From NCBI RefSeq assembly GCF_902833045.1, contig NZ_CADFDU010000001.1:434001-498000 (forward strand): 64,000 bases of DNA. Reading direction: 5' to 3'. Positions 24,982 through 35,262 of the stretch are shown here, one piece after another; positions within the stretch are counted from its first letter, which is position 1; each line of letters starts with the position of its first letter. The stretch is from Burkholderia sp. BCC0322 (GTDB lineage: Bacteria > Pseudomonadota > Gammaproteobacteria > Burkholderiales > Burkholderiaceae). Position numbers and translations under genes: made by a program. The notes below the pieces were generated by a model. The model had not been told where the DNA came from. It worked only from the letters and a program-made list of their open reading frames with translations, and ran no database searches.

Positions 24982-25953
24982 TCAAGCGCGACGGCGCGTG
25001 AATCGATGAAACGCGGGCGCACCGACGTCGATCCGGTACACCCGTAGCGCGTTGTCATGCCAGATGGCGCGGCGCTCGGCGTCGGCGAGGTGCGTCATCG
25101 CACGAGCGAACGTGCGCAGCAGCGCGGGATACGACACGCGCAGCCCGGCCACGGGAAAGTTGCTGGCGAACAGGCAGCGCTGCGCGCCGAATATCGCGAT
25201 CGTGTCGCGGATGATCCGCGCGTTGTCCGCGTCGTTCCACTCGGCGTCGCGCAAGCCGAGTTCGGAAATCTTCACGGTCACGCGCGGCGACGCGGCAAGC
25301 GCCTCCATGCCGCGCCGCCAGTGCGCGAGCCCTGCATCCGAGCGATCCCACGGCAGCCCCGCATGTTCGAGCACGACGTCGACATCAGGTGCATCGGCCA
25401 GCAGCGCGGCCGCCTCCTCGAGATGCCAGAACGGCACACGCAGGTCCCAGCACAGGCGATGCGCGACAAGGCGTTCCAGCGCGGCCGGCCAGCGCGGATC
25501 GCGCAGCGTGCCCGGCCCGTCGACCGATGCATCCGGCGCGGCCGCGGTGCGCGGCTTGAAGCGCACGCCGCGCACGCGCGGCCATGCGGCTTGCTCGGCG
25601 AGCCGTACATCCGCATCGCCGGCGAGCAGGTCGACCCACGCGACGACCGCCGACGGCAGCCCGTGCGACGCCGCGACCTCGTGCAGCCAGCGCGTTTCCG
25701 CCAGTGCCTCGTCGCGCGCACGTTCGGCCTCGACGTGCACGCTGGCGACGATTGGCGCACCCTGCGCCGCGTGCCGGAGATCGTCCACCCCGAAATCGCG
25801 GCACAGCGCCGCGTAGTCGCCGAACATGAAGCGCGCCGGATCGTAGTCCTCCTGCAGCCACGGATAGTGCGCGCCCGCATCGAGCCGCCACAGGTGGTGA
25901 TGCGCATCGACGAGCGCATCCGGCATGCCGTCGAGCGGCGACGGGTCGCGCAT
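24982..25953 (-). CDS. Amidohydrolase-2 family, sugar-lactonase-like
   Basis: 323 aa TIM-barrel metal hydrolase. VDAHHHLWRLDAGAHYPWL is the metal-binding start typical of the COG3618 group that opens sugar lactones. VKISELGLRDAEW and LFASNFPVAGL carry further active-site residues and VLEHAGLPW the central His. It begins 1 bp after the stop of the YncE-like gene and is the last gene of the leftward catabolic cluster. Lactone opening would produce a sugar acid for the dehydratase encoded upstream. Confidence 0.85.
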   Translation of the reverse strand: MRDPSPLDGMPDALVDAHHHLWRLDAGAHYPWLQEDYDPARFMFGDYAALCRDFGVDDLRHAAQGAPIVASVHVEAERARDEALAETRWLHEVAASHGLPSAVVAWVDLLAGDADVRLAEQAAWPRVRGVRFKPRTAAAPDASVDGPGTLRDPRWPAALERLVAHRLCWDLRVPFWHLEEAAALLADAPDVDVVLEHAGLPWDRSDAGLAHWRRGMEALAASPRVTVKISELGLRDAEWNDADNARIIRDTIAIFGAQRCLFASNFPVAGLRVSYPALLRTFARAMTHLADAERRAIWHDNALRVYRIDVGAPAFHRFTRRRA

Positions 25954-25954
25954 G

Positions 25955-26902
25955 TCAGCGTGCCCCGGCGAGCACGTACGACGCATCGGGCTCGCGCAGC
26001 GTCGCCAGTGCGCCGACGAAACGCCAGGTATCGAGATCGAGCTCGCGCACGTAGTCGTCCTGGAACGACACGTACGCGACGCGTCGCGACGGATGGAACG
26101 ACAGCGCAGTCGGGTTCGCGGGCAGCGCGATGCGCTCGATTTCCTCGAGCTGCCGTGCATCGAACACGGAGATCGACCGCTCGCCCGAGTTGGTGAGCAG
26201 CAGGAGGTCGCGGCCGTCCGGCGCGGTCGTGCGGTAGATGCGGTTCGGATCGCTGCGCGTCTTCACGCGGCGGCCGCAGGTCATCGTTTCGGTGTCGATC
26301 TCGACCAGCGTGTCGTCACCGCGATTCGCGACGAACAGCGTGCGCTCGTCGCTCGACAGCGCATTGCCTTCGGGGCGCGGGCCGGGCATGACCGCACGCG
26401 GCGCGACCGTCGCGTCGCGCGGATGGAACTGCGTGACGGTATTCGACAGCAGGTGCACGCCGTACGCACGGCTCGCATCGCGCGTGAGCGTGACGAGGTG
26501 CGTCTTCACGCCGCCGGACGGCACGGCCATGTTCGGCACGGGCTGTTGGGTCGGCTCGTCGAACACGAGCAGCATGTCGTGCGCCTCGCTCATCGCGTAC
26601 AGCCGGCCGTCGCGGTCGCTCGCCATCCCGTGCGGCCGGTAGTACGGCCACAGGTCGAGCATGCGCGTGTGCGTGCGTGCGGCGAGATCGATCTCGGCGA
26701 TCCGGTGGTCGCCTTCATGGCCGCGCGACCAAGCGGTCTCGATCCCGAAGATGCCGACGTACGCAAAGCGTTCGTTCACGTCGACGGTGAACTCGTGCGG
26801 GAAGTTCGGCAGCACGACGTGCTTGAGCGCGGCTTTCGTGTCGAGGTCGTAGAAGCTGAAGGTATGGGCGCATTTCTGCACCAGCAACAGGATGTCGTTC
26901 AT
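25955..26902 (-). CDS. YncE-like seven-bladed beta-propeller protein
   Basis: 315 aa, no signal peptide. Repeats such as VNERFAYVGIFGIE, RLYAMSEAHDMLLVFD, SSDERTLFVANRGDDTLVEI and NSGERSISVFDARQLEEIER are the blades of a YVTN/YncE-type propeller related to cytosolic lactonases. It lies between the MFS transporter gene and the lactonase-like amidohydrolase and is coupled to the latter (TGACATG junction). A binding or lactonase role in the same pathway is inferred from position. Confidence 0.75.
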   Translation of the reverse strand: MNDILLLVQKCAHTFSFYDLDTKAALKHVVLPNFPHEFTVDVNERFAYVGIFGIETAWSRGHEGDHRIAEIDLAARTHTRMLDLWPYYRPHGMASDRDGRLYAMSEAHDMLLVFDEPTQQPVPNMAVPSGGVKTHLVTLTRDASRAYGVHLLSNTVTQFHPRDATVAPRAVMPGPRPEGNALSSDERTLFVANRGDDTLVEIDTETMTCGRRVKTRSDPNRIYRTTAPDGRDLLLLTNSGERSISVFDARQLEEIERIALPANPTALSFHPSRRVAYVSFQDDYVRELDLDTWRFVGALATLREPDASYVLAGAR

Positions 26903-26945
26903 GGTGAGTCTCCGTAATTTCGTTCGGTGTCCCGCGTATCCGGTC

Positions 26946-28238
26946 TCAGTCCTCGCAGCGTTTCGGCAGCGTCAGCGCGAGCAGGCCGGCCACCGCGAGC
27001 GTGATCGCGAGGCTGTACACGCCGGCCGCCGCGCTCACGTGCTGGGTCAGCACGCCGACCGCATACGGGCCGCAGAAGCCGCCGAGATTGCCGAGCGCGT
27101 TGATCAGGCCGCGCGCGCTGCCGGCCGTCTCGACGCTGCAGAGCTTCGGCGGAATCGCCCAGAACACGCCGGCGGCCGCCTGCAGGAAGAAGCCGCAGCC
27201 GATCAGGAACGCGAACGACACGGCCATCGACGCATGCGTGAGCACCGACAGCGCCAGGCACGCGGCGAAGCCGACGAGCGGCAGCAGCACGAACAGGCGG
27301 CGCTTGCCGGTTCGATCAGACAAATAAGACGTGACGAACATCCCGATCACCATCGCGACATACGGCAGCATCGCGAGCAGGCCGACCTTGCCCATCCCGG
27401 TGTGCGTGAGGTTTTTCAGCAGGGTCGGCAGCCACATCGTATAGCCGTAGATGCCGACCTGATAGCAGAAGTTGATGGCGATCAGCAGCCAGATCGTCGG
27501 GTTGCGCAGCATCTCGCCGAACGATGCGGCGGCTGGCGTGCCGGCCGCGCGCTTGCGTTCCTGTTCGTCGCGCAGCGCGTCGAGGATGTAGGCCTTTTCG
27601 CGCGGCGACACCCAGCGCGCGGTCTCCGGGCCGTCGTCGGCGAACAGCAGCCACACGACGAGGCACAGCAGCGACAGCGCGCCCGCGCTGAAGAACAGGT
27701 GATGCCAGTCGTACGCGGCGAGGATGAAGCCGGACAGCGGCGCGGTGATCATGCCGGCGAGCGGCACGAACATGATGACCATCGCATTCGCGCGGCCGCG
27801 TTCGCGGTCGGGAAACCAGTGACTGACCATCGTCAGCACGACGGGCAGCATCCCGCCCTCGGCCACGCCGAGCAGGAAGCGCAGCGTCAGCAGTTGCCAG
27901 GTATGCGTGACGAGCCCGGTCAGCACCGACAGCACGGCCCAGCTCACGAGCGACCACGCGATGAAGGTCTTGCCGCTGCCGAGCGCCGCGCGCCGGCCGC
28001 CGGGAATCTGCAGGAACAGGTAGCCGAAGAAGAAGATGCCGCCGGCGAGGCCGGCCATCGTCGCGTCCATGCCGAGATCGGCGTTCATCCCGCCGGGCAT
28101 CGCGAACGCGATGTTCACGCGGTCCATGTAGGAAATGATGCAGGCGAGCAGCAGCGGCGGAATCACGCGCAGCCAGCGGCGGCGCGGAATGGCTTCGCCG
28201 GCTTCGTATGCCGGGGTGGCCGGGTTCAACGAATTCAT
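26946..28238 (-). CDS. MFS transporter, anion:cation symporter (ACS) type
   Basis: 430 aa, 12 transmembrane helices. The first helix reads LACIISYMDRVNIAFAMPGG, the D-R-x-N-x-A/F hallmark of ACS carriers for sugar acids such as galactonate, glucarate or tartrate. SHWFPDRERGRANAMVI is the helix 4 to 5 motif and SYLSDRTGKRR the loop of the second half. It probably imports the acid degraded by the neighbouring enzymes. A 194-bp gap separates it from the gene upstream, so it may have its own promoter. Confidence 0.9.
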   Translation of the reverse strand: MNSLNPATPAYEAGEAIPRRRWLRVIPPLLLACIISYMDRVNIAFAMPGGMNADLGMDATMAGLAGGIFFFGYLFLQIPGGRRAALGSGKTFIAWSLVSWAVLSVLTGLVTHTWQLLTLRFLLGVAEGGMLPVVLTMVSHWFPDRERGRANAMVIMFVPLAGMITAPLSGFILAAYDWHHLFFSAGALSLLCLVVWLLFADDGPETARWVSPREKAYILDALRDEQERKRAAGTPAAASFGEMLRNPTIWLLIAINFCYQVGIYGYTMWLPTLLKNLTHTGMGKVGLLAMLPYVAMVIGMFVTSYLSDRTGKRRLFVLLPLVGFAACLALSVLTHASMAVSFAFLIGCGFFLQAAAGVFWAIPPKLCSVETAGSARGLINALGNLGGFCGPYAVGVLTQHVSAAAGVYSLAITLAVAGLLALTLPKRCED

Positions 28239-28432
28239 GATGTCTCCAATATTGTCGATCTGCGGCAGCGATCTTCTGATGGACCGCTGTCACGCCGTGA
28301 CGAATCCGCACGGGGCTAACCGCCGATGTGCAACGCAGGTACGCATTTCCCATCGGCGCGAACGTCTGTCCGGCTGCGTGGCGTACGCGTCGGGCCGCAG
28401 CCGTGAAGCGCACACCGCAGGCGTCCGGACGT

Positions 28433-29350
28433 CTAATGCCCCCAGCGCAGCACGAGCGGGTCGAGCCGCCGCGCCGTGTCGAGCAAGCCGGCGCGCACCT
28501 GGGGATGCAGTTCGGGCCACGGCGAGCGCGGTGCGTCGCACGCGATCACGCCGCCTTCGCGCATCAGCGCCTTCGCGGTCAGGAAGCCGGACTGGCGGTT
28601 CTCGTAGTTGATCAGCGGCAGCCAGCGCGCGTACTGCTCGACGGCTTCGTCGCGGCGGCCGGCGAAATACGCGTCGGTGATCCGGCGAATCCCGTCCGGA
28701 TAGCCGCCGCCCGTCATCGCGCCGGTCGCGCCGGCATCGAGATCGGCCAGCAGCGTGATGCCTTCCTCGCCGTCCCACGGCCCCTCGATCGCGTCGCCGG
28801 CAAGCGCGATCAACTCGCGCAGCTTCGACGCGGCGCCGGCCGTCTCGATCTTGAAGTACGACACGGCGTCGATCTCGCGGGCGAGCGACGCGAGCAGCGC
28901 TGCCGGCAGCGCGACGCCGCTCGCGGGTGCGTCCTGGATCATCAGCGGAATGTCGAGGCCGTCGGCGGCTTCGCGGAAGAACGCGCGCACCTGCGCTTCC
29001 GGCACGCGAAACGTCGCGCCGTGGTATGGCGGCATCACCATCACCATCGCCGCGCCGAGCGCCTGCGCGTGCCGGTTGCGTGCCGCGCAGATCCGCGCGC
29101 TGAAATGCGACGTCGTGACGATCACCGGCACGCGGCCCGCGACGTGCTCGAGCGTGGTGCGCGTGATCAGGTCGCGTTCGTCGTCGCCGAGCGCGAATTG
29201 CTCGGAGTAGTTCGCGTGGATGCAGATGCCCTGCGAACCGGCGTCGATCATGAAGTCGAGGCAGCGGCGCTGGCCGTCGAGATCGAGCGCGCCGTGCGCG
29301 TCGAAGATCGTCGGCGCGACGGGAAAGACGCCCTGGTAGCGTGCGTGCAT
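28433..29350 (-). CDS. Dihydrodipicolinate synthase/N-acetylneuraminate lyase-family aldolase
   Basis: 305 aa TIM barrel. The Schiff-base lysine is in AVSYFKIETAG. The usual partner Tyr (in YN.P) is absent: the corresponding stretch reads PLMIQDAPASGVALP, a variant seen in sugar-acid-type members rather than lysine-biosynthesis DapA. GATGAMTGGGYPDGI is the C-terminal loop. It could cleave or dehydrate a 2-keto-3-deoxy acid made by the dehydratase whose gene ends 8 bp upstream. Substrate unknown. Confidence 0.85.
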   Translation of the reverse strand: MHARYQGVFPVAPTIFDAHGALDLDGQRRCLDFMIDAGSQGICIHANYSEQFALGDDERDLITRTTLEHVAGRVPVIVTTSHFSARICAARNRHAQALGAAMVMVMPPYHGATFRVPEAQVRAFFREAADGLDIPLMIQDAPASGVALPAALLASLAREIDAVSYFKIETAGAASKLRELIALAGDAIEGPWDGEEGITLLADLDAGATGAMTGGGYPDGIRRITDAYFAGRRDEAVEQYARWLPLINYENRQSGFLTAKALMREGGVIACDAPRSPWPELHPQVRAGLLDTARRLDPLVLRWGH

Positions 29351-29358
29351 GGCGGGCC

Positions 29359-30531
29359 TCACTCGACGATGTCGAACTGATCGAGGAACTCGGTCTTCAG
29401 CGTGAGGCCGAGGCCCGGCACGTCGTCGCGCAGTTGCACGAAGCCGTTCTCGGCCACCGGCTCTCCGTCGAAGATGTAGTAGAACAGCTCGTTGCCGACC
29501 TCGACGTCGAACATCGGGAAGTACTCGCTCATCGGCGACGCGAGCGTGCTCATCGTCAGGTGATAGTTGTGCATCTGGCCCGCATGCGGAATCACCGGCA
29601 CGCTGTACGCCTCGCACAGCGCGTTGATCTTGTGCGCCATCGTGATCCCGCCGACGCGGTTCGTGTCGTACTGGACGACCGACACGGCCTTGCGGTCGAG
29701 CAGTTGCTTGAAGCCGTACAGCGAGAACTCGTGCTCGCCGCCGGAGATCGGAATGCGCGTCAGCTGGTTCAGCTCCGCATAGCCGTCGATGTCGTCGGCG
29801 ATCACCGGTTCTTCCAGCCAGCGCGGCTGGTATTTCTCGAGCTTCGGCAGGATGCGCTTCGCGTACTCGAGGTTCCAGCCCATGTAGCACTCGAGCATCA
29901 GGTCGTTGTCGTAGCCGATCACCTCGCGGATCGCCGCAACCGACTTCAGGTTCTCGGTCACGCCTTGCTGCCCGTGCGCGGGCCCGTAGCCGAAGCGCAT
30001 CTTGAACGCGCGGAAGCCTTCCTTCAGGTAGCGCTGCGCCTCGTCCTGCATCTCTTTCAGGTCGGTGCGGTAGAGCTTCGAGTAGTAGCAGGGGATCTTT
30101 TCCTTGGTGCGGCCGCCGAGCAGCTTGAACACGGGCTTGCCGACGCTCTTGCCGAGGATGTCCCAGATCGCGATGTCGACCGCCGAGATTGCCGCCATGC
30201 CGATGCCCTTGCGGCCCCACGCGTGGGTCGCGCGATACATCCGCTGGTTCAGGTATTCGTAGTCCCACGGGTCCTGGCCGATCACGAGCGGCGCGAGGTA
30301 CTGGTCGATGATCACCTTCGCGACATGCGGTGCGAGCGCGACGTTGCCGAGGCCGACGATGCCGTCGTCGGTCTCGACTTCGACGACCGTCCATGAGTGG
30401 AAGCGGAACGTGCTCATCGTTTCCTGCGGCGCGTACAGCAGATCCATCGCGTTCGAGCAGAAGTTGCCCTGGGGCGGAACGGTCTTGCCTTTCCACTGGA
30501 ATACGCGTGCGCGCACGGAACGGATTTTCAT
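29359..30531 (-). CDS. Enolase-superfamily sugar acid dehydratase (rhamnonate dehydratase-like)
   Basis: 390 aa with an N-terminal capping domain and an enolase barrel. Metal ligands can be read in order: Glu in [10 protein letters not shown] (where rhamnonate dehydratase has Asp), Glu in RWLEEPV, Glu in SGGEHEFSL. The general-base region is [12 protein letters not shown] and a K-x-R pair stands in [10 protein letters not shown]. Such enzymes remove water from an aldonic acid to give a 2-keto-3-deoxy acid. The next gene in the operon encodes an aldolase-type enzyme, which supports that pathway. The exact substrate is not assignable. Confidence 0.85.
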
Positions 30532-30581
30532 GATGGTGTCTCCGGTAATTGATGTTGGCGGGTGCGGGAGGCGCGCGAACG

Positions 30582-31637
30582 TCACGCCGAAACGGTGGTA
30601 GTGCGGCGCGCGGCGCCCATCCGGCACGCGATCTGCAGCGCTTGCCAGGTCGCGCCGACGTCGGCCGTGCCGCGGCCTGCGATGTCGTACGCGGTGCCGT
30701 GCGCGGGCGTCGTGATCGGCACGGGCAACCCGCCCTGCACGGTCACGCCGCGCGAGAAGCCGAGCAGCTTGATCGCGATCTGCCCCTGGTCGTGGTACAT
30801 CGTGACGATCGCCTGGTAGTCGCCGGCCTGCGCCTTCAGGAAGATCGTGTCGGCGGGGAACGGGCCGTGGAACGGCGAGTCGGTCGGCCAGTCGCGCGAC
30901 TGCAGCTTGCGCACCGCCGGCTCGATGATGTCGACTTCCTCGCGGCCGCAGCTGCCGCCGTCGCCGCCGTGCGGGTTGAACGCGGCGATCGCCACTTTCG
31001 GCGCGGCGACACCGTTCGCGAGCAGCGACCGGTAGATCAGTTCGGAGGCCTGCTCGATCCGCTCGATGCTCAGGTAGCGCGGCGCATCCTTGAGCGGAAT
31101 GTGCGACGAGATGCGCGCGGTCCACAGCTCGCCGAGCGTGTTGAATTCGCAGAAGTAGCCGGTCACGCCGAGCGCTTCGGCGAAGTGGTGCAGCTCGTCC
31201 TCGTGCTTCAGCCCGCCGAGCTTCATCGCGTACTTGTTCAGCGGCGCGAAGCAGATCGCGTCGATGTCGCCGGCGAGCGCCGCGTCGAGGCACAGGTCGA
31301 GCACGGTCAGCGTCGAGCGGCCGCCGGCCGCGCCGGGCTGCCCGACCGTGACGTCGGCCGGGGCGATCGTGTCGACGGCGACGAACGCGGCGCGCGCGGT
31401 CGAGCGCCGGCCGCGCGCGGCGGCGAGCGACGCGACGGGCTCGACGTCGACCGTCACGCCGGCCACGCGCTGGCCGGCTTCCCACAGCCAGCGATCGCCG
31501 ATCAGCACGAGATTCGCGCGGGTGGTGGCGTCGGGGCGTGCGAGCAGTTTCGCGATCAGCTCGGCGCCGATGCCGGCGGGGTCGCCGAGCGTCAGCGCGA
31601 CGACGGGCAGGGGGGCGGCGGGCGAAGGGGTGGTCAT
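30582..31637 (-). CDS. PdxA-family NAD-dependent dehydrogenase (PdxA2-like)
   Basis: 351 aa. [18 protein letters not shown] is the PdxA start. Metal-binding His residues can be matched in [21 protein letters not shown] and [11 protein letters not shown], and [15 protein letters not shown] is the nucleotide/substrate region. It is divergent from housekeeping PdxA. PdxA2 enzymes oxidise 4-phospho-threonate or -erythronate in catabolic operons, usually beside a DUF1537 kinase, which is missing here. It is the first gene of the leftward operon and faces the LysR gene. Confidence 0.85.
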
Positions 31638-31723
31638 GCGGTGTCTCCGGTGGCGGCGCGTGGCCGTTTGTCTATGGGGTTGATGCTAGGTAGACGGAAT
31701 GAGTCGGTAAATTGAAAACTCTT

Positions 31724-31749
31724 GATGAATCGATAACCTGGAGTAATCA
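31724..31749. promoter_or_regulatory. LysR-type binding box A, divergent promoter
   Basis: Contains AATCGATAACC and an interrupted dyad GATAAC-N5-GTAATC of T-N11-A form, immediately before the LysR start codon and upstream of the PdxA-like gene. It matches the box at 34484-34509 in 20 of 26 positions. Confidence 0.6.
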
Positions 31750-31752
31750 GAG

Positions 31753-32700
31753 ATGGGCTCGATCGACCGACGAGACTCGACCCCGCAGTTGCTGAACCGG
31801 CTGCGCATGCGGCAGATCGCGCTGCTGCTGGCCGTGGACGAGTGCTCGACGCTGCGCGCGGCGGCCGACCAGATGGGCCTCACGCAGCCGGCCGCGACGA
31901 AGATGCTGGCCGAGCTGGAGAGCGCGCTCGGCCAGCGGCTGTTCGACCGTGTCGGGCGCGGGCTCGTGCTGAATCCGGCCGGCGAGCGCGTGCTCGGCTA
32001 TTTCCGCGGCATCCGCGGCAGCATGGAGGCGCTGAATCGCGAGCTTGGCGAGCTGCAGCTCGGCAGCGCGGGGCGGCTCGCGATCGGCAGCATCATGGCG
32101 GCGTCGCCGGGGCGGCTCACCGAGGCGCTGGTGCAGTTGAAGGCGCGTTACCCGCTGCTGGCGATCGACATCGCGGTGGATACGAGCGACAGGCTGATGC
32201 CGCAGCTGCGCGAAGGCGTGCTCGAAGTGGTGATCGGGCGCCACGTCGGGACCGATTGCGACTTCCGTGTGGTCGACGACGAGGCGCTCGCGATCATCGC
32301 GGGCCGCGACCATCCGCTCGCGGGCGCGGGGCCGGTGGCATTCGACGCGCTGCTCGATTACGCGTGGATCCTGCAGCCGGCCGGTAGCCCGGCGCGCGAG
32401 GTCGTCGAGCGCGAGTTCAACGCGCGGCATCAGCCGATGCCGCGCGGGCTGGTCGAAACGGGGTCGATCCTGACCACGATGAACCTCGTCGACCGTTCGC
32501 CGATGCTCGGCGTGATTCCGCTGACGGTGGCGCGGCGCAATGCGGCGCACGGGCTCGTCGCGATCATCGATTACACGCTCGAACAGAAGCTGCCGTCGTA
32601 CGGCAGCCTCGTGCGGCGCGACCGGCCGCTGAGCATCCCCGCGCAGCAGTTTCTCGCGCTTTTTCACCGGGACGGGGCCGGGGATGACGGCGGCGCGTAA
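31753..32700 (+). CDS. LysR-family regulator of the sugar-acid cluster
   Basis: 315 aa. The winged helix covers about 18-78 (RQIALLLAVDECSTLRAAAD, TQPAATKMLAELESALGQRL, GRGLVLNPAGERVL) with an effector domain after it. GalR/GbpR-type sequence features (GRLAIGSIMAASPG, REGVLEVVIGRHVG) suggest the branch that senses sugars or aromatic acids. It is divergent from the PdxA-like operon, with a candidate box just before its own start, so autoregulation and activation of the operon are likely. A second box lies before the 33105 MFS gene. Confidence 0.92.
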   Translation: MGSIDRRDSTPQLLNRLRMRQIALLLAVDECSTLRAAADQMGLTQPAATKMLAELESALGQRLFDRVGRGLVLNPAGERVLGYFRGIRGSMEALNRELGELQLGSAGRLAIGSIMAASPGRLTEALVQLKARYPLLAIDIAVDTSDRLMPQLREGVLEVVIGRHVGTDCDFRVVDDEALAIIAGRDHPLAGAGPVAFDALLDYAWILQPAGSPAREVVEREFNARHQPMPRGLVETGSILTTMNLVDRSPMLGVIPLTVARRNAAHGLVAIIDYTLEQKLPSYGSLVRRDRPLSIPAQQFLALFHRDGAGDDGGA

Positions 32701-32808
32701 CGGCGCGGTTTGCCAGCCCCGGCGGCCGAGCCAGCCGCGACGGCCGAGGTGGCCGAACCAGCCGCGCTGGCCGAGTCAGCCGGGTAGGCCGAATCAGCCT
32801 AACCGCCC

Positions 32809-33019
32809 GAGCCACCCGAGCCACCCGAGCCACCCGAGCCACCCGAGCCACCCGAGCCACCCGAGCCACCCGAGCCACCCGAGCCACCCGAGCCACCCGA
32901 GCCAACCGAGCCAACCGAGCCAACCGAGCCAACCGAACCAGCCAACCGAGCCAACCGAACCAGCCAAGCAAGCCAAGCAAGCCAAGCAAGCCAAGCAAGC
33001 CAAGCAAGCCAAGCAAGCC
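32809..33019. repeat. 9-bp-period minisatellite with three unit types
   Basis: Ten exact copies of GAGCCACCC (32809-32898), four of GAGCCAACC (32899-32934), a degenerate stretch, then six of AAGCAAGCC (32966-33019). Degenerate copies extend left to about 32715. The period keeps reading frames open on both strands (Pro-Ser-His, Pro-Ser-Gln, Ala-Lys-Gln repeats one way; Gly-Trp-Leu the other). It lies between the LysR stop and the end of the MFS gene and is probably non-coding and prone to slippage. Confidence 0.9.
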
Positions 33020-33104
33020 AAGCCACCACCATCGCGAACCGCAGTGAATCGTGACGCCGCCGCCGGCAAGACCGCCGACGCAGGCGAACCCGAAGCGACC
33101 CGCT

Positions 33105-34382
33105 TCAGTGTGCCGACGGCGCGGCGGGCGCGTCGGCGAGTGTCGGCATCGACGCCGACAGCGTGCGTTCCGGGCGAATCCGCAGCGCGGCGACGATGCC
33201 GATCAGCAGCATCGCGACCGAGCCGATGAACGGCACGGTCCAGCTCCCCGTGCGATCGACGAGATAGCCGAACAGGATCGGCGACAGGATCCCCGAGATC
33301 GCGGAGCCCGCGTTCATCATCCCGCTCGCGATGCCGGCGTGGGTCGGCGCGATGTCGCTCGGCACGGCCCAGATCGGCCCGATCGTCAGTTCGAGGCACA
33401 GGAACGACCCCGACAGGCACAGCGCGACGCCAGCCGTCGAGTGCACGACCGCGAGCGGCAGCAGGCACACGAGCGCGCCGACGAAGCTCGCGACGATCAC
33501 GCTCTGGCGCGACAGCGCGAGGTTGCCGGTCTTCCGGTAGATCCGGTCGCACAGCCAGCCGCCGAGCGTGTCGCCGGCCACGCCCGCGAAGAACACGCCG
33601 GATGCGAACAGCGCGGTCGACTTCAGGTTCAGGCCCTGGCCGTTCAGGAAGAACGTCGGCAGCCACGTGAAGAACAGCCACGCGGTCCAGCCGTAGCAGA
33701 AGTAGACGAAGATGGTCGGCGCCATCCGGCGGAACAGCGGCCCCCACGGCGTCGGGCCGGCGGGCGGCGCGGGGCGCGCGGCACGCGGGCGGCCATGGCC
33801 GGCTTCGTCGCCGAGCGGATACTCGCGGAAGCCGACGATCCACCACGCGAGCCACACCAGCGTCACCGCGCCGATCACGAAGAACGCCGCGCGCCACGAC
33901 AGCCAGGTCATCAGCGCGGCGACGATCGGCGGCGTGACCGCGTTGCCGAGCCGCGAGAACGAATGCGTGAAGCCCTGCACGACGCCGCGCCGCTCGCGCG
34001 GGAACCAGTGGGTGATCGCGCGGGCCTGGGCGGGCAGCGTCGCGCCTTCGCCGATACCGAGCAGCAGGCGCGCGGCGAACAGCAGCCCGAGGCTGTGCAC
34101 GAACCCGGTGGTGAAGGTCGACACGACCCAGATCAGCCCGCAGCCGATCAGCGTGATGCGGGCGCCGAACCGGTCGGCGATCCAGCCGCCGCCGACCTGG
34201 CAGATTGCATACGAATACGCGAACGCGGAGAATGCGACGCCAAGTTCGGTATTCGACAGGCCGAGTTCGGCCTTGATCGCGCCGGCCGCGGTCGCGAGGT
34301 TGACGCGGTCGACGTAGAGGATGAACGAAAGCGCGCACAGCAGCCACAACGTGTGGCGCCGTTGACGAGGGTCGTTGGGCAT
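33105..34382 (-). CDS. MFS transporter, ACS type (second transporter of the cluster)
   Basis: 425 aa, 12 helices. The first helix reads SFILYVDRVNLATAAGAIKA, again the ACS signature of sugar-acid carriers. ITHWFPRERRGVVQGFTHSF and GGWLCDRIYRKTGNLALSR mark the two cytoplasmic loops. It is about 30% similar by eye to the MFS at 26946, so it is not a recent duplicate. The ATG at 34382 has GGAG 8 bases upstream. The LysR box at 34484-34509 lies about 100 bp before it, placing it in the same proposed regulon. Confidence 0.9.
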   Translation of the reverse strand: MPNDPRQRRHTLWLLCALSFILYVDRVNLATAAGAIKAELGLSNTELGVAFSAFAYSYAICQVGGGWIADRFGARITLIGCGLIWVVSTFTTGFVHSLGLLFAARLLLGIGEGATLPAQARAITHWFPRERRGVVQGFTHSFSRLGNAVTPPIVAALMTWLSWRAAFFVIGAVTLVWLAWWIVGFREYPLGDEAGHGRPRAARPAPPAGPTPWGPLFRRMAPTIFVYFCYGWTAWLFFTWLPTFFLNGQGLNLKSTALFASGVFFAGVAGDTLGGWLCDRIYRKTGNLALSRQSVIVASFVGALVCLLPLAVVHSTAGVALCLSGSFLCLELTIGPIWAVPSDIAPTHAGIASGMMNAGSAISGILSPILFGYLVDRTGSWTVPFIGSVAMLLIGIVAALRIRPERTLSASMPTLADAPAAPSAH

Positions 34383-34483
34383 GTGTCTCACTCCATTCTC
34401 GTGCGCGGCGTGGCAATGACGCCGCGTTCACTGGCCGGGCCAGCATCGCGCGGCCGCGCGGACGCTGTCTAATGAATCTTTGG

Positions 34484-34509
34484 GATCAATCGATAACCCC
34501 AGGTATTCA
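34484..34509. promoter_or_regulatory. LysR-type binding box B
   Basis: Contains AATCGATAACC and a GATAAC-N5-GTATTC dyad closely matching the box at 31724-31749. It sits between the second MFS gene (leftward) and the 34576 membrane protein gene (rightward). Confidence 0.6.
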
Positions 34510-34575
34510 TTCCCGTTTCCGCCGCATCATTCGCAGCAGCCGTACCCGACGCAATGGAACACCACAGGTGAAGAA

Positions 34576-35262
34576 TTGACCGACGACGAAGAACTTTCAC
34601 TCCGCCGCGAGAGCCGCTTCTGGGAACTGCCGCCGGTGAAATGGTGGATCCGCGGGCATGGCCGCGACGGCTATTCGTTTCGTCTGCTGCTGTGGCCGCC
34701 GGTGATCGTGTTCGTGCTCGAATTCCTTTGCATGCTGTTCGACGCGCTGTACACCAGCATCGGCATCAGCGCCGTCGCGACGCTGTTCCTCGGCTTCGCC
34801 GGTTACCACGGCGCGCAGCGCGAATGGCTGGTGCCCTCCGCGACCACGCGCGCGCTCGTGAAGGCACGCATGAAGAAGGCGGCCGAGCGGTTCTCGTCGC
34901 TCGGCGTGGGCGCGACGGTGCTCGCGATCTTCGTCGCGGCGACCTCGCTGTCGCTCGTGATGTCGGGGCAGCCGGTGCTGGACAGCGTGTCGAAGGAGGC
35001 GGTGTCGATCTTCATCGCGCTGGTGTTCCTGCCGGTGTACGTGTCCGGCGCGGTGCGCAAGCTGGCGATCGCGCGGATCGAGGAGCTGGAGGCGCTGCGC
35101 AACGCGACCGTCGGCACGAAGCTGATATTCGACCGGGCCGGCGCCGTGCGCGCGGTCGTCGTGCAGGGCGCGGCCGGGAAAGGGAAAGTGTCCGTGCTGG
35201 AGTACACGGTGCTCGGGTTCAACCCGCCGCTCGAACAGGTCGGGCGCGAACCGCGTGCGTGA
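34576..35262 (+). CDS. Hypothetical membrane protein
   Basis: 228 aa. The TTG at 34576 is chosen because AGGTGA precedes it by 4 bases; a longer frame from a TTG at 34480 overlaps the regulatory box and has no ribosome site. Four transmembrane helices are visible: LLLWPPVIVFVLEFLCMLF, SIGISAVATLFLGFAGY, GATVLAIFVAATSLSLVMS and AVSIFIALVFLPVYVSGAV. The C-terminal part is cytosolic (KLAIARIEELEALRNATVG). Function unknown. Convergent with the two-component system. Confidence 0.7.
   Translation: MTDDEELSLRRESRFWELPPVKWWIRGHGRDGYSFRLLLWPPVIVFVLEFLCMLFDALYTSIGISAVATLFLGFAGYHGAQREWLVPSATTRALVKARMKKAAERFSSLGVGATVLAIFVAATSLSLVMSGQPVLDSVSKEAVSIFIALVFLPVYVSGAVRKLAIARIEELEALRNATVGTKLIFDRAGAVRAVVVQGAAGKGKVSVLEYTVLGFNPPLEQVGREPRA

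Follow-up and report, generated by a model that had tools for sequence, protein, structure and literature searches.

A catabolic gene cluster in Burkholderia sp. BCC0322

We analyzed a sugar-acid catabolic gene cluster on a 64,000-nucleotide stretch of the Burkholderia sp. BCC0322 genome (contig NZ_CADFDU010000001.1, positions 434,001 to 498,000; hereafter the window), in which an earlier reading of the sequence (the original prediction) had named eight genes of a possible undescribed regulon. All eight were located, at 24982–34382. Six lie in a row on the minus strand, separated by intergenic gaps of 50, 8, 194, 43, and 1 nt, and encode, in order, a PdxA-family dehydrogenase/decarboxylase (30582–31637; Pfam PdxA, 1e-78), an enolase-superfamily acid-sugar dehydratase (29359–30531; MR_MLE_C, 1.9e-58), a DapA-superfamily protein (28433–29350; family match, 1e-23), a transporter of the anion:cation symporter type (MFS1, 26946–28238; MFS_1, 4.9e-69), a YncE/WD40-like beta-propeller (25955–26902), and an L-fuconolactonase-like amidohydrolase (24982–25953; Pfam Amidohydro_2, 1.5e-31). 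The mechanically listed first open reading frame (ORF) at 24982–26160 is overlong, with the lactonase gene starting at about 25953. A LysR-type regulator (31753–32700, plus strand; HTH_1 and LysR_substrate) is encoded divergently from pdxA, and a second transporter of the anion:cation symporter type (MFS2, 33105–34382, minus strand; MFS_1, 1.6e-57) is encoded beyond lysR, placing pdxA and MFS2 1467 nt apart with lysR inside.

Propeller and dehydratase genes were found in an identical set of 22 of the 61 genomes searched, all of them among 37 genomes of the genus. We further examined 80 loci, namely those kept among the dehydratase-search matches listed; several are short contigs or cut by contig ends, and gene counts in them rest on identity floors that we picked. 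On this basis, PdxA was encoded in 75 loci, DapA in 71, and LysR in 68; LysR, PdxA, dehydratase, and DapA were jointly present in 60 of the 80. The closest dehydratase loci among the matches listed were from Burkholderia lata, puraquae, metallica, and other Burkholderia, and the nearest comparison genome had 23% of sampled 31-mers in common with the window. The same arrangement occurs in Comamonadaceae and Alcaligenaceae, and with different regulators and transporters in Sphingomonas, Ruegeria, Phaeobacter, and Paracoccus. Across a sample of 399 genomes of the order, the window propeller matched 5 (E ≤ 1e-60), and all five encode the dehydratase too, including one where both genes are non-adjacent (G690). 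Linkage is not universal, as in Caballeronia and Gemmatirosa loci a relative of the dehydratase is found without some of its core partners: DapA was missing from Caballeronia L099 and PdxA from Gemmatirosa L102, while DapA was also missing from the stretch covered in L026 and L028. Nonetheless, co-occurrence (22 of 22 genomes; 60 of 80 listed loci) supports the claim that the genes form a single linked catabolic set that includes a LysR gene, and the neighbourhood comparison that the original prediction had proposed recovered a recurring block whose genes do travel together.

Predicted functions of the core enzymes

Residue conservation was assessed in rows chosen by similarity to the window proteins (45% for PdxA, 55% for the dehydratase, and 50% for DapA and the amidohydrolase), from which rows with stop codons or of less than 80% length had been dropped beforehand. 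The DapA-family protein, described in the original prediction as an aldolase, matched L-2-keto-3-deoxyarabonate (L-KDA) dehydratase (7c0c/3fkk) at 479 bits against 81 bits for the next PDB protein, and its Schiff-base Lys167 was present in 80 of 80 rows. We rejected the aldolase role on this difference in score; as its nearest solved relative is an L-KDA dehydratase, the gene product should be a 2-keto-3-deoxy-L-pentonate (L-KDA) dehydratase. Since C4 is the sole chiral centre left in 2-keto-3-deoxypentonate, L-arabinonate and L-lyxonate would yield the same product, which implies an L-pentonate upstream. An L-KDA dehydratase (PDB 3FKK, 7C0C) is mentioned for the non-phosphorylative L-arabinose pathway of Azospirillum brasilense (PMC9795676). 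That pathway is alike in using a DapA-superfamily dehydratase on 2-keto-3-deoxy-L-pentonate, but its upstream dehydratase is of the IlvD/EDD type, whereas that of the window is of the enolase type and no sugar dehydrogenase is found among the eight genes. Separately, an AraD1-family gene (NCBIfam GguC) sits after the dehydratase gene in Sphingomonas parapaucimobilis (L095, 15184–16167), in DapA's place, which suggests a replacement of DapA by an unrelated dehydratase.

The enolase-superfamily protein retains K177, R179, D289, and H316 in 94 of 94 rows. Arg179, His316, and the KxR motif agree, in residue and number, with the catalytic residues that Ghasempur et al. (2014) reportedly described for L-lyxonate dehydratase (LyxD), and we propose this activity for the window protein. 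A function in L-rhamnonate degradation was considered and rejected, the score of 231.6 bits falling below the cut-off of 393 for the L-rhamnonate dehydratase model NF011968 of NCBIfam; relatives are annotated by NCBI as "L-rhamnonate dehydratase". The solved relatives 3stp, 3sqs, and 3ssz (622–639 bits) are labelled galactonate dehydratase or mandelate racemase and may be unrecognised L-lyxonate dehydratases. Ghasempur et al. (2014) reportedly described L-lyxonate degradation in Pseudomonas aeruginosa PAO1 via a 2-keto-3-deoxy-L-lyxonate dehydratase and alpha-ketoglutarate semialdehyde, and are said to have reported the structure of an enolase-superfamily aldopentonate dehydratase from Labrenzia aggregata. 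The PAO1 pathway resembles the window in its enolase-superfamily dehydratase with KxR motif and Asp/His dyad and in its keto-deoxy acid dehydratase; in contrast, the window adds a PdxA-family gene, a propeller, and a lactonase that would supply L-lyxonate. That study is among those cited in PMC10444878 and PMC6336799; in a passage of a 2022 review (PMC9795676), by contrast, aldopentonate dehydratases of the enolase superfamily are said to lack any known structure.

As a reference for the PdxA-family protein we took what is presumably the true PdxA of a Burkholderia-type genome (G001; 355 bits with Pfam PdxA). Metal-binding His179, His223, and His313, together with one aspartate and one lysine, were kept in 85 of 85 related proteins, whereas at the substrate site Glu, Thr, Ala, and Ile/Val took the place of His, Asn, Asp, and Arg in the same 85. 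The four replaced residues are ones that we take, from PdxA structures, to bind the substrate. Alignments show that the His-Thr, Asn, Arg, and Asp of this site are retained in the solved proteins 4jqp, 2hi1, and 6e85, the last named D-threonate 4-phosphate dehydrogenase. Because the residues for a phosphorylated substrate are replaced throughout, a non-phosphorylated substrate is likely, and no kinase would be needed. We propose that the enzyme is an NAD-dependent decarboxylase converting 2-carboxy-L-lyxonate to L-lyxonate, although its relatives appear in annotated records as "4-hydroxythreonine-4-phosphate dehydrogenase PdxA". As this product would feed the dehydratase directly, the kinase elsewhere or pair of branches that the original prediction had thought necessary can be dispensed with.

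In its two-branch form, that earlier alternative joined an aldonate branch (dehydratase and aldolase) to a phosphorylated threonate or erythronate branch (PdxA and a distant kinase). Pathways with a DUF1537 kinase and PdxA2 degrade D-threonate, L-threonate, and D-erythronate; they share with the window a PdxA-family dehydrogenase in an acid-sugar operon, and their PdxA2 enzymes are generally known to use phosphorylated acids, in keeping with the name of 6e85. However, the eight genes of the window include no kinase, and we rejected a phosphorylated-acid branch because the phospho-substrate residues seen in 4jqp, 2hi1, and 6e85 are replaced in 85 of 85 related proteins. Also, the DapA-family protein is a relative of dehydratases, and pdxA adjoins the dehydratase gene in Variovorax, Sphingomonas, Ruegeria, Phaeobacter, and Paracoccus (not in Qingshengfaniella). 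Two separate branches are thus very improbable.

A proposed route for L-ascorbate breakdown products

Upstream of these core steps, the amidohydrolase has L-fucono-1,5-lactonase as its sole NCBIfam match (108 bits against a cut-off of 400) and 4dlf as its best PDB match (3.9e-20), and all 28 rows, counting that of the window, share H18, H20, K133, and H197. We propose that it is a 2-carboxy-L-lyxonolactone lactonase. Asn265 (in FASNFPV) is likewise present in all 28 rows, the window's among them, at a position presumably occupied by Asp in metal-dependent members, and the enzyme may work without a metal. For the propeller, no signal peptide was seen when the sequence was judged by eye. With numbering that begins at the second residue, H35, E36, R88, H90, E105, K132, H134, E177, R220, E303, and D305 were invariant across 23 sequences, and the protein is proposed to carry out a benzilic acid rearrangement on 2,3-diketo-L-gulonate.

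Taken together, the block is most likely a LysR-linked operon with a nearby transporter gene that would degrade branched or diketo breakdown products of L-ascorbate. MFS1 and MFS2 would import 2,3-diketo-L-gulonate or 2-carboxy-L-lyxonolactone; the propeller would rearrange the former to the latter, and the amidohydrolase would open the lactone ring to give 2-carboxy-L-lyxonate. Decarboxylation by the PdxA-family enzyme would then yield L-lyxonate, which the enolase-superfamily enzyme would dehydrate to 2-keto-3-deoxy-L-pentonate and the DapA-family enzyme, by a further dehydration, would turn that into alpha-ketoglutarate semialdehyde, to be converted to alpha-ketoglutarate by an aldehyde dehydrogenase (ALDH) encoded elsewhere. 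From the gene identities, conserved catalytic residues, co-occurrence, and shared promoter motif reported here, we infer every substrate as well as the direction of transport and the regulation. Within an ascorbate-derived route, we have considerable confidence in the roles assigned to the enzymes and in the sequence of steps from carboxy-lyxonate on, and are less sure of the entrance compound, be it 2,3-diketogulonate or 2-carboxy-lyxonolactone, than of this core.

Stack et al. (2020) reportedly described an L-ascorbate pathway in Ralstonia eutropha (Cupriavidus necator) H16, the upper enzymes of which are said to be a cytochrome b561 that oxidises ascorbate and a gluconolactonase. Its lower steps reportedly comprise a WD40 propeller, an amidohydrolase lactonase, a PdxA decarboxylase, and L-lyxonate degradation, continuing with an enolase-superfamily L-lyxonate dehydratase and a DapA-family 2-keto-3-deoxy-L-pentonate dehydratase. 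The window is alike in its propeller and amidohydrolase (1 nt apart here), its PdxA-family enzyme, and a predicted course from L-lyxonate to alpha-ketoglutarate. It differs in that searches of the genus genomes detected no cognate b561 and, in those bearing the cluster, no cognate gluconolactonase, and in having a propeller of a clade, described below, that is tied to its own transporter and amidohydrolase. The description of the regulon as undescribed is not supported, as the gene combination fits the lower part of a pathway that has reportedly been published. Passages of PMC11066805 and PMC10444878 that cite Stack et al. (2020) take the study to describe an ascorbate pathway for which an enzyme of the enolase superfamily (COG4948) is required. 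No paper on this operon in Burkholderia was found in the literature searched, outside of which Stack et al. (2020) falls, and that study may already describe clusters of this variant.

Two propeller clades and two possible entrances

Propellers split into two groups on opposite sides of a branch with 100/99 support, with the window protein in clade A. Clade labels went to whichever query scored higher and are in part a product of that choice; the partner genes were tallied apart from them. The tree left out 11 near-identical rows, a broken copy (L094), and a truncated one (L050), and the placement of three long rows (L142, L123, and L122) is unsure; L122, which scored as B but was placed beside clade A, was assigned to no group. 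A clade A propeller and the amidohydrolase occurred together in 21 of 22 loci, while clade B loci carried an SMP-30 gene in seven of eight cases and b561 in five of eight. When genomes from the whole class were searched with a clade B propeller, 1 of 370 matched; this yield, like that of the order-wide sample above, was too low for a broad survey. In L122 (6676–9927, Cupriavidus sp. P-10), the SMP-30 and propeller genes flank a gene for a cytochrome c, which is perhaps an alternative electron acceptor to b561.

Genes for b561 (matching Pfam PF03188 in Variovorax) and an SMP-30 gluconolactonase lie near the core in relatives from Variovorax, Paraburkholderia graminis, and Sphingomonas, and these neighbours fit ascorbate independently. 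In the window, no b561 was found by tblastn at 1e-4, and PF03188 was above its cut-off in none of the 37 genus genomes, with one sub-threshold match (G002). As b561 and gluconolactonase were not detected and the clade A propeller pairs with the amidohydrolase, we read the window as the core with one type of entrance, entrance A, through which 2,3-diketogulonate or 2-carboxy-lyxonolactone would be taken up. 2,3-Diketogulonate is noted as an ascorbate breakdown product in plants (PMC5398285, PMC11066805), and 2-carboxy-L-lyxonolactone and its opened acid are mentioned, with provisional identification, as diketogulonate products in the plant apoplast (PMC5398285). We tentatively suggest, at less than even confidence, that the clade A propeller works with the amidohydrolase and a transporter of their own as a second entrance into the carboxy-lyxonate core, independent of ascorbate and serving plant-released diketogulonate or 2-carboxy-lyxonolactone, and that the clades differ in reaction or product, A making a lactone that needs the amidohydrolase and B a product that does not.

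The same enzymes could alternatively serve growth on ascorbate itself, if unrelated enzymes encoded elsewhere oxidised ascorbate and opened dehydroascorbate. Dehydroascorbate is generally known to hydrolyse spontaneously, and unrelated oxidases or lactonases, as well as SMP-30 paralogues weaker than E 1e-30, would be invisible to our searches. Set against this are the counts for the cognate proteins, with b561 in none of the 37 genus genomes, gluconolactonase in none of the 22 that bear the cluster, and the Pfam result given above; we regard ascorbate as a rather doubtful growth substrate. An SMP-30/gluconolactonase (E ≤ 1e-30) was detected in three genus genomes without the cluster. In two genomes without the cluster (G007 and G034), an SMP-30 gene adjoins an ALDH gene whose product is 80–81% identical to the cluster-linked one, and this pair probably belongs to another sugar-acid pathway.

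In a further alternative, the PdxA-dehydratase-DapA core is unchanged, but the substrate of the propeller and amidohydrolase is a different lactone or diketo acid (such as an erythorbate derivative) whose breakdown would also lead to a 2-carboxy-pentonate. The different partners of the two clades would fit this, as would the coexistence of both clades in one gene cluster of G592 (L141) and about 11 kb apart in Paraburkholderia graminis, where two propellers with a single function would be superfluous. In addition, none of the five add-on genes was seen in 45 of the 80 listed loci, some of which are short contigs. However, the clade A propeller of the window is 47–52% identical to eight clade B rows and has many invariant polar residues in common with them, and two import routes into one reaction would equally explain coexistence. 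We consider a different lactone or diketo acid unlikely. Both this explanation and growth on ascorbate leave the core of the proposed route intact.

Several observations weigh against the proposed ascorbate-derived route. The cognate b561, an upper enzyme of the ascorbate pathway, was not found at E ≤ 1e-15 in any of the 37 genus genomes, nor the cognate SMP-30/gluconolactonase at E ≤ 1e-30 (which weaker paralogues could escape) in the 22 cluster-bearing ones, and both absences were judged on relatives rather than on the source genome. The add-on genes segregate imperfectly, with b561 also in one clade A locus (L044), b561 without a propeller in one locus, and four loci whose covered stretch included the amidohydrolase but no propeller. 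One genome rated 100% complete (G562) encodes a clade B propeller, gluconolactonase, and b561, and no amidohydrolase homologue was found in it at E ≤ 1e-10, so that the order of steps given above may not suit every member. The PdxA rows, picked at a similarity of at least 45%, favour shared residues and do not constitute independent tests. In favour of the route, an ALDH gene follows the amidohydrolase gene in five loci (L023–L027). Among NCBIfam models, the L025 protein scores best with 2,5-dioxovalerate (alpha-ketoglutarate semialdehyde) dehydrogenase, though at 93.5 bits, far short of the cut-off of 750. Its relatives (at least 60% identity) are encoded in all 22 cluster-bearing genomes, but this is non-specific, as every one of the 37 genus genomes encodes ALDH relatives, whether or not it carries the cluster.

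Transport and regulation

The nearest NCBIfam model to MFS1 is TIGR00893 (282 bits, below the cut-off of 395), and we propose that the protein imports a diketo acid or lactone. TRAP genes replace MFS1 in several clade A loci outside Burkholderia (L044, L050, L051, and L141). The E. coli TRAP importer YiaMNO is mentioned as recognising 2,3-diketogulonate (PMC4324149); the solved relatives of the TRAP receptor of one clade A locus are generically named DctP or are receptors of sialic-acid and other types, which gives no indication of the substrate.

For the LysR-type regulator, the nearest NCBIfam model is PcaQ, matched at 125 bits where the cut-off is 304. The operator-like motif GTTATCGATTSATC has exactly two exact matches in the window, both on the minus strand: GTTATCGATTCATC at 31724–31737, in the lysR-pdxA intergenic region, and GTTATCGATTGATC at 34484–34497, about 100 nt upstream of MFS2. 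We scanned L013–L062, L093, L101, L124, and L127 for it, leaving out L063–L092. Allowing up to two mismatches, the motif was found at its position between lysR and pdxA in all 17 LysR-bearing loci of L013–L030, and at that ahead of MFS2 in nine of ten scanned loci with an MFS2 of at least 85% identity, L015 being the exception; it was far rarer near LysR in L031–L062 (7 of 32 loci, some without LysR). Three Comamonas loci show the site as an extended imperfect palindrome, as expected of a LysR-type operator. The number of matches with up to two mismatches in the window is not significant (two found, a count reached by 10 of 100 shuffles), and the case for the motif therefore rests on the two exact promoter matches and on conservation. 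In Paraburkholderia franconis (L027), which has neither LysR nor the motif, an MFS2 copy of 76% identity follows the cluster ALDH gene. The motif at both promoters, together with this adjoining copy, indicates that MFS2 probably belongs to the same regulon as the pdxA cluster, and the single regulon with a second transporter in the original prediction gains support from this sharing.

Two other features adjoin MFS2. The stretch from lysR to MFS2 contains a 9-bp tandem repeat with some 24 copies (32806–33021), the length of which, on a rough count, seems variable among Burkholderia loci. On the plus strand, an ORF at 34480–35262 has no Pfam match; because its listed TTG start overlaps the operator-like motif of MFS2, the real start is probably downstream.

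Implications

The operon is misannotated but explainable, and its proposed chemistry, while remarkable, has reportedly been published in outline. A linear route replaces the puzzle of an enolase-type dehydratase that occurs with PdxA and without a kinase, and relatives listed in annotated records as "L-rhamnonate dehydratase" and "4-hydroxythreonine-4-phosphate dehydrogenase PdxA" are likely misnamed. What may be new, judging from sequence comparisons, is the variant without ascorbate oxidation and the layout with two clades and two entrances. If the variant is real, plant-associated bacteria would use oxidised vitamin C waste without oxidising vitamin C themselves, and the modular layout of a core with entrance A or entrance B would offer a test of which breakdown product each lineage uses.

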